From NCBI GenBank assembly GCA_003599255.1, contig QZJF01000005.1, forward strand, positions 96,985 to 134,673: a stretch of 37,689 nucleotides of DNA, written 5' to 3'. The stretch is from a candidate division WWE3 bacterium. Lineage in GTDB: Bacteria; Patescibacteriota; WWE3; UBA101185; UBA10185. Under the pieces are notes generated by a model. The model was given only the letters and a program-made list of their open reading frames with translations, did not search any database and was not told where the DNA came from. Position numbers and translations under genes: made by a program. Positions within the stretch are counted from its first letter, which is position 1, and each line of letters starts with the position of its first letter. Of this stretch, positions 5,225-14,562 are shown in pieces.

Positions 5225-5253
5225 ATTATAACAAAAAATGGTCTTTCTGTAAA
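5225..5253 (-). promoter_or_regulatory. Strong promoter of the 105-aa gene
   Basis: On the minus strand TTTACA (5253-5248), 17-nt spacer, TATAAT (5230-5225) with an upstream TG (TGTTATAAT). It is one of the best matches to the sigma-70 consensus in the window. Confidence 0.72.
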
Positions 5254-5299
5254 TAGCTATAGGCTTTTAGTCCGTGCTTTCACTTTTTACGAAATTGCA

Positions 5300-5305
5300 T
5301 ATAAT
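5300..5305 (+). promoter_or_regulatory. -10 box of a leaderless mRNA (pcm)
   Basis: TATAAT with 8 nt before the ATG at 5314; transcription would start at or next to the start codon. Confidence 0.6.
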
Positions 5306-5313
5306 CAGGATGT

Positions 5314-5892
5314 ATGTACATTTCAAAAACTGTATCGGAGGCCATGAAACGCGTGGACCGAAAAGATTTTGTTGGTCAGGTACACGAACCGTCAGCTTAC
5401 GTTGACGCTCCATTACCAATAGGTTACGGACAGACCATCTCACAACCTACTACAGTTGGAATCATGTTAACAATGTTGGAATTGGCGCCGGGAATGAAAG
5501 TCCTTGAAGTAGGATCTGGCTCCGGGTGGGTAGTAGCTTTAATTTCTCATATTGTCGGAAACTCAGGTGAAGTTATTGGAGTGGAAAGGATTCCCAAATT
5601 AGTGGAGCTGGGAAAAAAGAATATTGAAAAATATTGTAGGGATAAAAATGTTGCAATTTACAATACTGAGAAGGAAATCGGGTATCAACCGCGCGGACCA
5701 TATGACAGGATAATCGTTTCTGCCTCTTCTACCAGTCTCCCTACAGAATTAGTTTACCAACTTAAAACGGAGGGGATCATGATTATTCCTATATTGTACT
5801 CGATCTGGAAAGTTATGAAGAAATCCGACGATCCGGAGGATATCATAAAGCAGGAATACCCTGGTTTTGTTTTTGTACCATTGGTATATTAA
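5314..5892 (+). CDS. pcm: Protein-L-isoaspartate O-methyltransferase
   Basis: A 192-aa SAM-dependent methyltransferase that starts repair of isoaspartyl residues in aged proteins, in the cytoplasm. Seen in order: the N-terminal VSEAMKRVDRKDFV, the family hallmark PLPIGYGQTISQP (about 34-46), SAM-binding motif I VLEVGSGSGW (about 63-72), the acidic residue of motif II in GVERIPKLV, and YDRIIVSAS (motif III region). It is slightly shorter than the usual 205 to 215 residues at the C-terminus. ATG 5314 is chosen because it keeps the conserved N-terminus and follows TATAAT by 8 nt; the ATG at 5344 after GGAGG would delete conserved residues. Confidence 0.93.
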   Translation: MYISKTVSEAMKRVDRKDFVGQVHEPSAYVDAPLPIGYGQTISQPTTVGIMLTMLELAPGMKVLEVGSGSGWVVALISHIVGNSGEVIGVERIPKLVELGKKNIEKYCRDKNVAIYNTEKEIGYQPRGPYDRIIVSASSTSLPTELVYQLKTEGIMIIPILYSIWKVMKKSDDPEDIIKQEYPGFVFVPLVY

Positions 5893-5908
5893 AGTTTTAG
5901 GACGGGGT

Positions 5909-5914
5909 TATAAT
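5909..5914 (+). promoter_or_regulatory. -10 box of a leaderless mRNA (90-aa gene)
   Basis: TATAAT with 7 nt before the GTG at 5922, and no ribosome-binding sequence. Confidence 0.55.
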
Positions 5915-5921
5915 AATCTAG

Positions 5922-6194
5922 GTGATTAAGAAAATATTAAAATTTTTAGGTTATACCACGCTGCTTTTTGTAATGATACTTTTCTTTTATCCCAAACCTG
6001 CAGTTTCTTTTCCCGAAGGGGGATGGATACCTGGTATACAAAGCGAAGGATATGTATGCGAATGTTTAGGGTACAGGACTCCGCTTGTTGAATATATAGA
6101 TATGGGAAAGGGCTACAAAGAAGAATTGCGTATGTTAGCAAAGTGTTACGGTATTCCTTATCACTGTGCAGATTACGATGAGAACGTCGAATAG
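5922..6194 (+). CDS. Small secreted or membrane-tethered protein, 90 aa
   Basis: Not recognised. Residues 1-27 are a basic-hydrophobic signal sequence or anchor (KKILKFLGYTTLLFVMILFFY), followed by a 60-residue exported part with four cysteines (CECLG, KCYGIPYHC), which could form disulfides or bind metal. No lipobox cysteine follows the hydrophobic stretch. It uses a GTG start right behind a TATAAT box. Its stop codon lies 2 nt before the left repeat of the mobile element, so before the insertion this gene would have run convergently into tRNA-Trp. Confidence 0.62.
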   Translation: MIKKILKFLGYTTLLFVMILFFYPKPAVSFPEGGWIPGIQSEGYVCECLGYRTPLVEYIDMGKGYKEELRMLAKCYGIPYHCADYDENVE

Positions 6195-6196
6195 TC

Positions 6197-6203
6197 TGGC
6201 AGG
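6197..6203 (+). repeat. Left attachment-site core (attL), TGGCAGG
   Basis: TGGCAGG is identical to 14489-14495, which is the 3' end of tRNA-Trp read on the other strand (CCTGCCA). It lies between the end of the 90-aa gene and the ribosome site of the first element gene. The identity stops after exactly 7 bp on both sides, as expected for a short recombinase core. Confidence 0.65.
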
Positions 6204-6255
6204 CACTAGTTGATTATGTCGGGAACTTCTATGCAAGTAGCAATCTGGAGGTGAG

Positions 6256-8310
6256 ATGCTAAAAGTACTTTATAAATATCTCCAGTTGAGGTATATATGG
6301 GTTAAGCCAACAAGGTTAACTAAAATGATAAGCACAAAGCAGTTAATTACATTAAACCTAAAATACGGTACTGAGACAAAGCCTCTAAAAGATGTTGCAT
6401 TTGCCCAGTTAGTGTCAAAAGCCTTATATTTAGCGGACTCCCCATTATCGCAAAAACAAATAGCAGTAAAAGTAAAAGAGCTTCTTGGTATTCAAAAAGT
6501 TACGAGGAGCAATATTGTCGGTGGTTTAACCTATCTTAAAGATGAGGGTAAGGTAACAGAAAAAAATGCCGGCATGTGGGAGTTGACATTAAGGGAGAGG
6601 AGCAATATTGAATCTAATCTTAATACTGACCAACACTTGATGGAGGATGTCATAGAAAGGCATTTTCCATCAGATATCGATAAAAAAATAATACGGGAGT
6701 GGTTTATAGATGCAGCGACTGATTTCTTTGGTCATTTTGGCGATGAGTTGGTAACTTCAATAACGAAGAATACTAAAACTAGACCAAAGGATCTAAAAGA
6801 GTTGCTTAAGCCTTCTATTAACAAATACTCATTACTTGCTAACTCATTAGAATTAGAAAAAGGTTTTGTTGACTTTATTTCTTGTGACGACGATAGGGAT
6901 AAACAATACTTCATGCAGCTTATTTATGCTATGTTTTCTGCAAGGTTAGTAGCAGCTGACCTTGGTTACGACCCTATAGCTGTAGATGAAGTGAAAAATG
7001 CTACACTTGTATTAGACACTAACGTTTTATTTGTTCTAGCATTAGAACGCCATAAATCAGCAAAAGCCTTAAAAGCTGTAATCAACACATTAAATAAACT
7101 TGGCTCCCGAGTCGTATATTTGGACTGTACGAGGCAAGAATACTCTAGAGCTGTATCTCATGTTAAAAAAAGTACACTTGAAATAGTTAATTATGGTTAT
7201 CCGTGGGAGGTTCTAGTTAATACGACAGACTCCTTTATGAGAACAGCTATAAAGCGTGGGTGTTCAAAAGAAGAACATTTTAATGAGTTTTTCAGAAGCA
7301 TTATGTCCGTCCCAGATACATCCGAGTTTGGTTTTTCGTTAAGTTTTGAGGCCGATGCTGTAACTGAAGAAGTATCTAAAAAAGCTGAGAATGATAAAGG
7401 TATGCAAGCAAAAATCCAAGACTTTAATACGAGATACGGTTCAAAGCTCAGGGAATATCCAATAAAGTCGCCCTCATCACTGATCCACGATGCCACACTT
7501 ATACACGTTTGCGACGCTAAGAGAAAAGAAGGCGAAAAGTACTGGGTTCTAAGTTTGGACAGGTCCTTGCAAATGTATGCAGTTAATAACACAAATCCAC
7601 ACGGTGTCTCCACGGTGATTTCACTTGATATCCTAGTTCAGGTATTAGCTTTGAATACGACGGCTGGAGCCGTTGATTCAAATGAGTTTGCTCCATTCTT
7701 AGCCATTATGATGTTGAATGAGTGTCTTCCCACGCAAGGTGCTTATAGTATGGTTGACTTAAAAACCATGGCACAGATAAGTGATGAGGTTAAAATATTA
7801 CCCCCAGCAAATATTGATAGATTAGTAGACATAGTTAAAAAAGCACGATTTGCAGGTAAACCAATAGATAGTAGCCAGTTCCTAGTTAGTTTTAATAGGG
7901 CATTACAGACTGAGAAAGAGAATGTTGGAGAAGAACTTAGAAAAGCACATGAGACAATTGAAAGTTATAAAGTTGATTTGGACAAAGAAAAAGAAAAATC
8001 CCTAAAAGTTACTTCTTATTTACAGGATGACCACAAGTCAAAGTTATCTCGTCGTTATTTAAGAGATTTAGTTATCAAAATCCTTATATCAATAATAATA
8101 GGCTTAGTGATAGGAACACCTATTCTTGTATTTTTGCCGAAAGTACTTGGTGAGGCATATGAGGCATACATTTTTCTTGTTACTACGGTTCCTGTATTCG
8201 CATCTGCTTTGTGGATTATTCCAAAATCAGTCAAGACTTACAAAGCTTCAATGGCAAGGATTGAAACAGAGGCTCAAAAGGAAGTTACGGAAAGTATATC
8301 CGGAAAGTGA
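6256..8310 (+). CDS. PIN-domain nuclease-like protein with C-terminal membrane anchor, 684 aa
   Basis: A multidomain protein not matching a named family I know. Residues about 45-110 look like a winged helix (SPLSQKQIAVKVKELLG...LTYLKDEGKV). Residues about 250-445 carry a PIN-like nuclease signature: VLDTN (D254), TRQE (E295), HDATL (D412) and LSLDRS (D435), the acidic set that binds Mg2+ for RNA or DNA cleavage. A helical linker (about 560-600, charged, coiled-coil-like) leads to two membrane helices (about 606-627 and 634-656) and a short charged tail. The nuclease would therefore hang on the inner face of the membrane. GGAGGTGAG lies directly before ATG 6256. It forms a unit with the next membrane gene (12-nt gap). 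The integrated form shows no promoter within the element. Confidence 0.75.
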   Translation: MLKVLYKYLQLRYIWVKPTRLTKMISTKQLITLNLKYGTETKPLKDVAFAQLVSKALYLADSPLSQKQIAVKVKELLGIQKVTRSNIVGGLTYLKDEGKVTEKNAGMWELTLRERSNIESNLNTDQHLMEDVIERHFPSDIDKKIIREWFIDAATDFFGHFGDELVTSITKNTKTRPKDLKELLKPSINKYSLLANSLELEKGFVDFISCDDDRDKQYFMQLIYAMFSARLVAADLGYDPIAVDEVKNATLVLDTNVLFVLALERHKSAKALKAVINTLNKLGSRVVYLDCTRQEYSRAVSHVKKSTLEIVNYGYPWEVLVNTTDSFMRTAIKRGCSKEEHFNEFFRSIMSVPDTSEFGFSLSFEADAVTEEVSKKAENDKGMQAKIQDFNTRYGSKLREYPIKSPSSLIHDATLIHVCDAKRKEGEKYWVLSLDRSLQMYAVNNTNPHGVSTVISLDILVQVLALNTTAGAVDSNEFAPFLAIMMLNECLPTQGAYSMVDLKTMAQISDEVKILPPANIDRLVDIVKKARFAGKPIDSSQFLVSFNRALQTEKENVGEELRKAHETIESYKVDLDKEKEKSLKVTSYLQDDHKSKLSRRYLRDLVIKILISIIIGLVIGTPILVFLPKVLGEAYEAYIFLVTTVPVFASALWIIPKSVKTYKASMARIETEAQKEVTESISGK

Positions 8311-8322
8311 TATCGATAAAAT

Positions 8323-8865
8323 ATGGATTTTGATAAATACATACTTTGGCAAATGGAACAGGACAGTAAGTTAAGAGACGAGGTCGGGCACACCTATTTC
8401 CAAGCACAATTGAATAACCTAAACAAGTTAAGGGATTTAGTTGTACATATGACAACAATATCCGCCGGAATAATAGGATTCACCATACCAGTGTTTGGTA
8501 GCAGTACTCTTGTTAAAACACCTGCTCTTCTGATTGGAGGATTGCTGGAGTTACTGGTTCTAACAACTTACGGTATATGGTATCTAAAGTGGATATTGGA
8601 GACCGAAAACCGTGATTTAACCCTTCAACACAGGAAATACAACGAAGTTGTAGATTCTATACGGGATTCTCACTTAAAAACCTTTGAAAATCCTACTGAA
8701 AAATCATTTCAGCATCAACAGGAAGTGGGGGAGGAAGTTATGAAGGCACTCATTGCTGACCCCGTTAAGGATAAAAGAGACTACGCTTTAGACATTCTTT
8801 TTATCGCATTTACTTTGGGCCTTCTTCTAATAATACTGTCTTTGGTTCCCGTTAAAGTTGGATAG
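8323..8865 (+). CDS. Three-helix membrane protein, partner of the PIN gene
   Basis: A 180-aa unknown membrane protein. The N-terminal 40 residues are charged and helical, then come two adjacent membrane helices (about 42-62, TTISAGIIGFTIPVFG; and about 66-88, LLIGGLLELLVLTTYGIWYL), a roughly 65-residue cytoplasmic helical region rich in charges, and a third helix (about 155-176, LDILFIAFTLGLLLIILSLV). The paired helices with a cytoplasmic helical arm resemble in layout the small membrane effectors found with defence nucleases or sensors, but no family can be named. It starts 12 nt after the PIN gene and its 3' end overlaps the converging 372-aa gene by 14 nt. Confidence 0.72.
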   Translation: MDFDKYILWQMEQDSKLRDEVGHTYFQAQLNNLNKLRDLVVHMTTISAGIIGFTIPVFGSSTLVKTPALLIGGLLELLVLTTYGIWYLKWILETENRDLTLQHRKYNEVVDSIRDSHLKTFENPTEKSFQHQQEVGEEVMKALIADPVKDKRDYALDILFIAFTLGLLLIILSLVPVKVG

Positions 8866-12244: not shown

Positions 12245-12887
12245 ACGAGGTTATACATCATTTTCAAACGATTCTCTACGTGAGGGTTACCTCCCAGACC
12301 ACCTTTTTAGATTTAGGGCCATTATGGAATCTCATTTAGGTTCTGCAGGTAGAGCAGTTGTAAAGTTAGAAACTATAGCATATGAGATGGGTAAAAACAG
12401 AAGAGCTGCAGAGCGTGCGAAGAAGTGGTTCCTTCGGAACTCTAATCTGCAAGCAAAAAAGCGTGGGTATTTATATGAGTTCTACACAGAACCAGACAGG
12501 AGTGTCTTATATGGTCAGACTCGTGTGTCGCATGTCGTAGTACACCCAGATACCTTTACAAAAATAACAAAAGAAAAAGACTTATATAAAAACCCTAAAG
12601 AGGTTTTTTCAAATAAGTGGGAAAAGAGTGGAAAACCTCCAGAGTTAAGTGGTGAAGAAAAGGTGTTAGTGGAAAACATAGTTAAATGGGTAATGAACCC
12701 GATGTTTAAAACGTGGTTACCAGAAAAGGTTGAGAAGTACAGAGCTATTGGTGCCATTCGCAAATATGGCTATGCGGCGATTTTAAAAATATATAAAGAG
12801 GAGGCAGAGTGGGGACTTTCTCCGCATCCCAAGCCGTTTTGGGAACGTATAAAGGAGTTGGACAATATGGCACAGACGCCAAAATAG
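12231..12887 (+). CDS. Helix-turn-helix protein, possible replication or partition initiator, 218 aa
   Basis: Residues about 20-85 look like a winged helix or HTH (FRFRAIMESHLG...VKLETIAYEMGKNRRAAERAKKWFLRNSNL), a layout seen in plasmid and phage replication or regulatory proteins that bind DNA; the rest is helical with a conserved-looking WGLSPHPKPFWERI near the end. No named family can be assigned. ATG 12231 has AGAGGTG 6 nt upstream; the GTG at 12222 is less likely. It overlaps the previous gene by 14 nt. Its own 3' end lies just before the recombinase promoter. Confidence 0.62.
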   Translation: MKGNRRGYTSFSNDSLREGYLPDHLFRFRAIMESHLGSAGRAVVKLETIAYEMGKNRRAAERAKKWFLRNSNLQAKKRGYLYEFYTEPDRSVLYGQTRVSHVVVHPDTFTKITKEKDLYKNPKEVFSNKWEKSGKPPELSGEEKVLVENIVKWVMNPMFKTWLPEKVEKYRAIGAIRKYGYAAILKIYKEEAEWGLSPHPKPFWERIKELDNMAQTPK

Positions 12888-12889
12888 TA

Positions 12890-12895
12890 TATAAT
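12890..12895 (+). promoter_or_regulatory. -10 box of the recombinase promoter
   Basis: TATAAT; the transcript would begin around 12901-12903, that is, at the first base of the folded leader described next. The -35 region is poor. Confidence 0.55.
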
Positions 12896-12900
12896 TAAAG

Positions 12901-12987
12901 TGTACCCAACTTAATAGAATCGCTATTTTAATGGCCGTCTCAGTCAACTTGAAGCGATTCTTGTTGGGTACAACTGGGGCGGCCATT
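12901..12987 (+). ncRNA. Pseudoknotted 5' leader RNA of the serine recombinase mRNA
   Basis: Three sets of long complementary segments lie within 87 nt. TGTACCCAAC (12901-12910) pairs with GTTGGGTACA (12963-12972), 10 bp. GAATCGC (12917-12923) pairs with GCGATTC (12954-12960), 7 bp, stacked inside the first. AATGGCCG (12930-12937), in the loop, pairs with CGGCCATT (12980-12987), 8 bp, beyond the outer stem, which makes an H-type pseudoknot. No T-run follows, so it is not a terminator. The fold begins at the predicted transcription start and ends 22 nt before the recombinase ATG. It could be a ligand- or protein-sensing leader, or a recombinase/accessory DNA site made of inverted repeats. No known riboswitch class was recognised. 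Confidence 0.6.
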
Positions 12988-13009
12988 TAATTGCTTTAAA
13001 AGGAAAAAT

Positions 13010-14521
13010 ATGAACGATTTAAGATATGTACAATATGCAAGAAAGTCTACGGAAGCCAAGGAAAGACAAATCCTATCTATTCCGGAGCAAGACGCTGAAA
13101 ACAAAAAATATCGGGAAAGGGAAGGTTTAAATGTAGTTAAAGAGTTTCGGGAAAGTAAATCGGCATTCAAATCCGACAATCGAATAGAGTTTGACGAAAT
13201 GTTGCGAATGATAAAAAGAGATGAAGCCGACGCTATTTTAACGTGGAAACCTGACAGGCTTTGTCGTAATCCTAAAGAGGGTGGAGAGATACTCCAGTTA
13301 CTTCAAAATGGAGTAATTAGGGAAATACGAACACCGTTAGGTGACGTTTATACTCCAGAATCTGACCAGCTTATCTTGTTAATACACTTTGGTATGGCTA
13401 ATCAATACTCAAGGAATATAAGTCAGAATGTTAAAAGGTCTATGCCTTACAAAGTTGCAAGAGGGGAGTATTACCGAGCGGCTCCTATTGGTTACGAAAA
13501 CTTTGGAGAACAAAGAGGACATCGAAATATAAGGCCTCACCATTTTGAAGCACCTCTAATCAAAGAAGTTTTTGAACTTTGTGCAAAAGGCGGCTATTCT
13601 CTTGGTTATTTAACCCGATTTTTGTCAGAAAAAGGTTTGAAGAGCAAAAAAGGTAAAGAAATAGCTAAAAGTAATATGCATAGTATTTTAACTAGCCCCA
13701 TTTATTATGGTTATTTTTACTATAAAGGTGAGCTTTATAAGGGTGACTACGTTCCTTTAATATCCAAAGATACTTACGATGCTGTTCAAGTTGCGTTAGG
13801 GGACAGAAGTGTACCCAAAGTAAACTCATGGAAGCACCCATACAATGGCTTACTGAAGTGTGCTGAGTGTGGTTGTGCTATTACAACTTCTGTAAAAAAG
13901 AAATACTATAAAGGAACTAATCGCTTTGTAACCTATGCTTATCATCATTGTACCAAGCGAAAGGGAGTATGTTCGCAAAAACCAATGTCATCTGCCAAAC
14001 TGGAAAGTATATTTATTGACGCCATCTCAAAGATAAACATAGATGCTGACGTATGGTCTTTGGGTATGGAGTTAGTAAAAGCTAAATATCATAGCCAAGT
14101 TAATCAAAATAACACTCAACTCGACCACTTTAGAATCGAATACAACCGTATTGAAGGCAGGATAAACAGATTGATTACAATGCGTGCGGATGCGGAGATA
14201 ACCGCCGAAGAGTTTAAGGCACAAAAGAACAGCATGCTTGAGGAGCGTGCGAAAGTTGAAAATAAGATTAACGACACCAAGTTTTCCTCTGATAATTGGT
14301 TAGAACGTACGGAAGAGTTCTTAAATACAGCTTTTTATGCCAAAGGAATCATTGAGGGTAAGGATATTTTGAAAAAACGAAAGTTAATTATGGACATAGG
14401 TTACGACCTCAAGCTAGATAAAGGAAATGTTGTTGTTACTTACAGAAAACCCTTTGATATACTGCTTGACCCGGCATATCGTACTAATTGGCAGGGGTGG
14501 AAGGAATCGAACCCTCGTTAA
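13010..14521 (+). CDS. Large serine recombinase (integrase) of the element
   Basis: A 503-aa site-specific recombinase that integrates and excises DNA through a covalent phosphoserine. The N-terminal resolvase domain begins YVQYARKSTE with catalytic S13, then SIPEQ and WKPDRLCRNP. The recombinase domain follows (about 150-260, PIGYENF...ILTSPIYYGYF), then a zinc ribbon (C284, C287; HHCTKRKGVC) and a coiled coil (about 365-425). The start has AAGGAAAAAT upstream. The last ten codons (from W494) lie in the attachment core and in the tRNA-Trp gene; the residues GWKESNPR are a translation of tRNA. In the circular form the frame would instead continue from 6204 to a stop at 6260-6262, giving 514 residues. 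Confidence 0.95.
   Translation: MNDLRYVQYARKSTEAKERQILSIPEQDAENKKYREREGLNVVKEFRESKSAFKSDNRIEFDEMLRMIKRDEADAILTWKPDRLCRNPKEGGEILQLLQNGVIREIRTPLGDVYTPESDQLILLIHFGMANQYSRNISQNVKRSMPYKVARGEYYRAAPIGYENFGEQRGHRNIRPHHFEAPLIKEVFELCAKGGYSLGYLTRFLSEKGLKSKKGKEIAKSNMHSILTSPIYYGYFYYKGELYKGDYVPLISKDTYDAVQVALGDRSVPKVNSWKHPYNGLLKCAECGCAITTSVKKKYYKGTNRFVTYAYHHCTKRKGVCSQKPMSSAKLESIFIDAISKINIDADVWSLGMELVKAKYHSQVNQNNTQLDHFRIEYNRIEGRINRLITMRADAEITAEEFKAQKNSMLEERAKVENKINDTKFSSDNWLERTEEFLNTAFYAKGIIEGKDILKKRKLIMDIGYDLKLDKGNVVVTYRKPFDILLDPAYRTNWQGWKESNPR
14489..14495 (+). repeat. Right attachment-site core (attR), TGGCAGG
   Basis: This is the second copy of the 7-bp repeat at 6197-6203. It is the 3' end of tRNA-Trp (last two stem bases, discriminator G and encoded CCA) and also codons 494-495 of the recombinase. 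Confidence 0.65.
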
Positions 14522-14562
14522 CGGTTTTGGAGACCGCTGTACTACCACTGTACGACACCCCT
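14489..14562 (-). tRNA. tRNA-Trp (CCA anticodon)
   Basis: The acceptor stem AGGGGTG pairs with CACCCCT. The anticodon stem GCGGT/ACCGT carries loop CTCCAAA with anticodon CCA. The T-arm is GAGGG-TTCGATT-CCTTC. The 3' end G-CCA is encoded. The 3' end is the integration site of the element, and the recombinase frame overlaps it by 33 nt. Confidence 0.95.

Follow-up and report, generated by a model that had tools for sequence, protein, structure and literature searches.

The large serine recombinase encoded at positions 13010..14521 (+ strand) of the window, by which we mean the whole 37,689-nucleotide stretch of WWE3 DNA analysed here, ends inside a tRNA gene. Comparison with related elements indicates that attP lies inside the integrase's own gene, and that the C-terminus of the enzyme would be swapped on integration and restored by excision or tandem stacking. 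The placement of attP within the recombinase gene is suggested by the fact that the left end of an element, or a tandem neighbour, restores a native-type tail. Judging from the genomes sampled, this state-dependent C-terminus recurs across Patescibacteria and appears to be a widespread design.

Anatomy of the element

The genome that carries the element amounts to 1.10 Mb in 25 contigs. Identical copies of a 7-bp core, TGGCAGG, are present at 6197..6203 and 14489..14495. The right copy forms the 3′ end of a tRNA-Trp(CCA) detected by ARAGORN at 14489..14562 (− strand), the integration target, and its TGG both encodes the conserved Trp494 and is complementary to the CCA end of the tRNA. The recombinase ORF runs across this core, and its final eight residues (GWKESNPR, 14495..14518, + strand) are antisense of tRNA-Trp. 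In the integrated state the protein has 503 aa and its ending, NW followed by QGWKESNPR, is tRNA-encoded. Splicing 13010-14495 in silico to position 6204 onward yields a protein of 514 aa, in which NW is followed by QALVDYVGNFYASSNLEVRC and a TAA at 6260-6262. The codons of this native tail, ALVDYVGNFYASSNLEVRC plus TAA, occupy 6203..6262 (+ strand) and come into frame only upon excision or tandem joining. The predicted circle junction reads CGTACTAAT, TGGCAGG, CACTAGTTG. An earlier note on this DNA had proposed that the recombinase frame crosses the core, that its last codons are tRNA sequence, and that rejoining at the 7-bp core adds 19 residues before the TAA; the ORF and ARAGORN coordinates bear out the former two claims and the splice confirms the latter, and each of the note's coordinates that was checked holds.

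A tRNA-Trp free of the element is present in a genome of the same genus (G017), and the similarity of the window to that genome ends at 14488; this empty site is informative on one side only, since the left flank of the window is absent from G017. An exact-repeat search for long att repeats returned none, and generic repeat finding failed because the att cores span just 5-9 bp. No contig or read of a circular form was seen, and IMG/VR scans for the circular junction and for relatives of the element gave no match. Dyad analysis of attP and attB yielded no consistent symmetry centre for a crossover dinucleotide.

The recombinase and its leader

Large serine recombinases as a class join attP to attB without host factors and rely on a recombination directionality factor (RDF) for excision. 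The enzyme of the window is a member of this class, structurally nearest to the SPbeta integrase. It displayed the Resolvase (PF00239, E 9.9e-20), Recombinase (PF07508, E 3.4e-16), and Zn_ribbon_recom (PF13408, E 9.8e-7) domains, and the catalytic motif Y-x-R-x-S was found as YARKS, with Ser13 nearly invariant in the alignment. The AlphaFold2 model of the related G023a recombinase contains a long coiled coil (helices 346-393 and 399-449), and the cores shared by attP and attB are short, at about 5-9 bp. The best PDB matches were both SPbeta integrase (9dxh, E 1.1e-36; 9dxd, E 2.8e-22), and the sequence match to it stops at profile position 460, ahead of the tryptophan and the tail. Trp494 is conserved in at least 90% of a 44-sequence alignment. 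In the G023a model, the tail forms a helix at 494-507 of which this tryptophan is the first residue, at low confidence.

The best promoter-like site 5′ of the recombinase is ATGGCA-17-TATAAT (10/12) at 12867..12895 (+ strand). It is followed by a structured leader at 12896..13009 (+ strand; fold z = −3.9) in which two inverted repeats, TGTACCCAAC/GTTGGGTACA and AATGGCCG/CGGCCATT, interleave. The leader of G023a (L031 5866-5982) displayed compensatory changes in these repeats (GTAGCCAAC/GTTGGCTAC and AATGACCG/CGGTCATT). Pairing of the repeats would give alternative hairpins or a pseudoknot, and the leader matched no Rfam family.

Conservation of the native tail

A 7-bp core followed by 19 open codons is not significant in isolation, and support for the native tail comes from comparison. 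A recombinase 58-59% identical to that of the window resides in another tRNA-Trp in G020, where the gene ends as NWQGR inside the tRNA and the left end of the element restores the tail WQALVEYLVNFYCAVQC. In G383, a recombinase of about 44% identity is likewise found in a tRNA-Trp, and its left ends read QALNNFLGTYFYKAQW and QGLVNYVGNFYTQY. Meanwhile, the G023a recombinase (70% identical) is uninterrupted, with the tail WLRTVDNVRNYFKEQ in place. Related tails were restored from the opposite ends of ten further elements: besides G020 and G383 at tRNA-Trp, these target tRNA-Ala (G006), tRNA-His (G003), tRNA-Asn (G012, G029, and G098), tRNA-Asp (G007), tRNA-Met (G140), and tRNA-Val (G389). The earlier note had suggested comparing the C-termini of relatives integrated at other sites, and the tails at these ten left ends answered in its favour. 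Left ends were identified for some elements, not for every one.

The restored tails have in common the motif W-x-x-[ILV]-h-[DEN]-x-[VLF]-[RG]-[TN]-[YF]. In a leave-out test, a tail profile was trained without the tested element and only residues past the core were scored. In 8 of 11 elements the core-matching TGG took first rank, and in all 11 it was third or better (Fisher p 5e-8); in the window, the left core at 6197 was rank 1 among 187 upstream TGG sites. Differences between the tail of the window and the second G383 tail number 1, 1, and 7 at codon positions 1, 2, and 3 (pN 0.08, pS 0.95), and this excess at third positions suggests selection on the protein. The G140 pair of tails behaves similarly (1, 1, and 6 by codon position), and the G020/G383 pair displayed little bias (pN 0.39, pS 0.42). 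Based on these substitution patterns, the pairs that are informative point to selection on the tails at the protein level, and the signal in other pairs is less clear.

Occurrence across Patescibacteria

Of the 380 Patescibacteria genomes sampled, 91 contain homologues of the recombinase (E ≤ 1e-80), with Falkowbacteria, Berkelbacteria, and Staskawiczbacteria among the named carriers. In a set of 72 non-redundant loci that was examined, the 3′ end of a tRNA or tmRNA faces the end of the recombinase in 60 and overlaps it in 58. The facing gene is always on the opposite strand, and 17 tRNA isotypes plus tmRNA serve as targets. Among loci with an encoded CCA and an open frame, the TGG complementary to CCA is read in frame as tryptophan in 41 of 47 (binomial against 1/3, p 3e-14, a value that is optimistic because the sampled loci are related and the counts are not independent). 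The exceptions use frame 1 (five loci) or frame 2 (one locus), and in a further 11 loci CCA is not encoded or no TGG can be identified at the junction, so the tryptophan is not essential. The replacement tails vary in length from a few up to about 90 residues, and at most loci the integrated recombinase gene has a reading frame longer than 1.4 kb. The broader claim of the earlier note, that integration state determines how the recombinase ends, is thereby strongly supported for most of the Patescibacteria recombinases sampled.

Distant relatives of the recombinase are encoded in two human faecal "Bacteriophage sp." records (L165, MT837677.1, 841-2385; L166, MT836653.1, 7556-9034), in which the genes run into the 3′ ends of tRNA-Leu and tRNA-Glu. 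These records are probably integrated chromosomal fragments. Two contigs (G210:C18, L097, and G106:C8, L098) end a few bases from the recombinase core or within the target tRNA, as expected if excised and integrated forms coexist in the sample.

Tandem arrays and tail donation

Contigs from G023 and G025 have in common a stretch of 19,868 bp with 100.000% identity (G023:C4 17594-37461, L031/L042; G025:C32 5136-25003, L039/L045), and the adjoining chromosome is 82% identical. The first base of this stretch is the T of TGG and its other end is a tRNA-Gln. The exact start at TGG fixes the boundary of the element. The recombinases that precede the junction in the two genomes are 26.5% identical, yet both end in WLFIGEQVRTAILV, which is encoded by the shared element. 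Such junctions show that in tandem arrays the preceding recombinase receives its tail from the element that comes in next to it. The identity of the two copies suggests that this 19.9-kb element was recently mobile, with the caveat that contigs of a shared sample may have been co-binned. Two recombinase-tail left ends also occur in succession in L033 (421 and 2275), L103 (7457 and 9184), and L095 (9312 and 12526), which suggests stacked elements or remnants of older ones.

The PIN gene

The first cargo gene of the element (6256..8310, + strand) encodes a PIN-like protein of 684 aa with an apparent C-terminal transmembrane stretch and weak matches only (PIN_8, E 0.017; Mtu_PIN_fam, E 0.013). 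It is followed by a small membrane protein of 180 aa with no family match (8323..8865, + strand), and neither protein had a PADLOC defence match. The restored stop codon of the recombinase overlaps the PIN start (ATG 6256) by 7 nt, and the ribosome-binding site of the PIN gene, GGAGGTGAG (6247..6255, + strand), lies within the tail codons, both as the earlier note had described. From this arrangement the note had derived a switch by which excision would control the expression of the PIN and membrane genes. As the selected function of the tail this is very unlikely in our judgement. It fits the anatomy of this element: the overlap comes with a strong ribosome-binding site, the promoter scan found no promoter-like site on the + strand in 6197-6255, where according to the note an active promoter would speak against it, and no terminator turned up between the recombinase and the end of the element. 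The note's further point that the PIN gene has no clear promoter when integrated stands for 6197-6255, but transcription could arrive from upstream. No + strand terminator was found in 5250-6255; therefore, read-through from 5314-6194 is possible, with a 90-aa gene whose stop lies 2 nt ahead of the left core (5922..6194, + strand) as a possible source.

As a general function, the switch is at odds with the relatives. Among the roughly 20 left ends or native junctions that were examined, a single one has a start-stop overlap; the others have gaps of +15, +31, +146, or +414 nt or are without a co-oriented gene. Co-oriented and tightly coupled cargo, as a circle-dependent operon would have, was not found across relatives. 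In G020, a TATAAT located 6 nt ahead of the first cargo ATG would serve either state. No relatives of the PIN protein were detected among the 380 phylum genomes; with these variable gaps and orientations, conserved PIN coupling was rejected. The PIN switch is thus possible and credible in the anatomy of this element, where it is at most a by-product, and is not conserved. The tail swap is widespread in Patescibacteria, and the proposed connection with a nuclease gene is confined to the element of the window.

Other first cargo genes differ in content. That of the G020 element (L032 16151-19615, − strand) encodes a possible defence protein of 1155 aa, which combines HEAT repeats with an N-terminus resembling HamA (PADLOC, E 2.8e-8). 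The first cargo at L038 2530-3420 is rRNA adenine dimethylase-like (PF00398), and that at L103 9365-9874 is SocA/Panacea antitoxin-like (PF13274).

Proposed mechanism and alternatives

We regard it as probable that the element is integrative, with attP in the end of its recombinase gene, and that the tail swap governs integration competence. We propose that attP occupies the last part of the gene, at the conserved tryptophan codon, where TGG is the complement of CCA. Crossover in the core, which would comprise TGG and a few acceptor-stem bases, would fuse the gene body to the tRNA; a conserved tail of about 15-35 residues would be lost and a short antisense-tRNA tail gained. Excision, or the entry of a second element into the same tRNA, would return a native-type tail. 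This tail may contribute to the synapsis of attP with attB, or to its control, near the base of the coiled coil. The circle would accordingly make an integration-competent enzyme, and integration would disable or redirect it, favouring the integrated state. For the element of the window alone, a further effect of excision would be to put the PIN gene 3′ of the recombinase with its 7-nt overlap.

The C-terminus of the LI integrase is located near the coiled coil, and attL x attR recombination is activated when the RDF is fused to the C-terminus of the integrase of phiC31 or Bxb1 (PMC5737554). Taken together with the modelled tail helix, these observations suggest that the native tail assists integration; most likely it is required for integration or biases the enzyme toward it.

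What the swapped enzyme does is less certain. It might carry a built-in directionality switch, whereby the native tail drives attP x attB and the antisense-tRNA tail makes the enzyme excision-biased or silenced; the tRNA would then write the integrated-state C-terminus, and tandem elements would reprogram each other by swapping tails. We consider this full version quite unlikely. Integration could also be suicidal, the tailless enzyme being dead and exit needing a complete recombinase in trans or a tail from a tandem neighbour. The existence of tail-restoring tandem arrays and the parallel with archaeal suicidal integrases (PMC8371274) favour such an outcome, but the catalytic and DNA-binding domains are all intact in the integrated form, and the long open frames (more than 1.4 kb) of the integrated genes at most loci suggest retained use; we find it somewhat doubtful.

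The overlap might, finally, be compact and without consequence, the tail change leaving activity alone and the tail being conserved mainly as the right arm of attP. In large serine recombinases the attP arms are under sequence constraint, and the variable length of the replacement tails and the existence of other frames and Trp-less junctions agree with this. We nevertheless deem it unlikely: in the 33 nt next to the core, tail differences fall mostly on third codon positions, and the motif is common to recombinases about 30% identical with different tRNA targets. A switch or silencing on one side, and neutral overlap and plain suicide together on the other, are roughly evenly balanced.

Comparison with known systems

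The archaeal suicidal tyrosine integrases (SSV1, pTN3, pT26-2) also have the att site in their own gene, which integration alters, and typically target tRNAs. They differ in being tyrosine recombinases, whereas the enzyme described here has serine recombinase domains, and in that integration breaks their gene into Int(N) and Int(C) and detaches the catalytic part, whereas here only a short C-terminal tail is lost. A 2021 review described self-disrupting recombinases as exclusively archaeal (PMC8371274). In mycobacteriophage BPs, attP lies in the repressor gene, and integration removes the C-terminal 33 residues, with an ssrA-like degradation tag (PMC4557955). This integration-dependent immunity is reminiscent of the present case in that attP lies in a coding gene and integration cuts the C-terminus and changes protein behaviour, but the gene concerned is that of the repressor and not of the recombinase.

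ICEKp1 displays state-dependent integrase transcription (PMC13023037): the joined ends of its circle change gene control and a structured integrase leader lies near a tRNA, but the switch is one of promoters, whereas here it would be one of protein ends. Domain order and fold are common to the SPbeta, A118/LI, phiC31, and Bxb1 integrases, although the sequence match to SPbeta ends before the tryptophan and tail. In the literature searched (open-licence papers), we found no description of a bacterial large serine recombinase with attP in the integrase gene.

Implications

Self-altering recombinases had been described as exclusive to archaeal tyrosine enzymes, and these findings point to a recurrent bacterial version among the serine recombinases of Patescibacteria, in which the CCA end of a tRNA doubles as a conserved tryptophan codon. 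They account for the xRDSNP-type, tRNA-antisense C-termini of predicted proteins in Patescibacteria genomes, and the TGG core offers a precise boundary marker with which to find mobile elements in candidate-phylum genomes. They also suggest tRNA-targeting recombinases for genome engineering. The tail swap provides a candidate mechanism, open to testing, by which serine integrases may sense their integration state.
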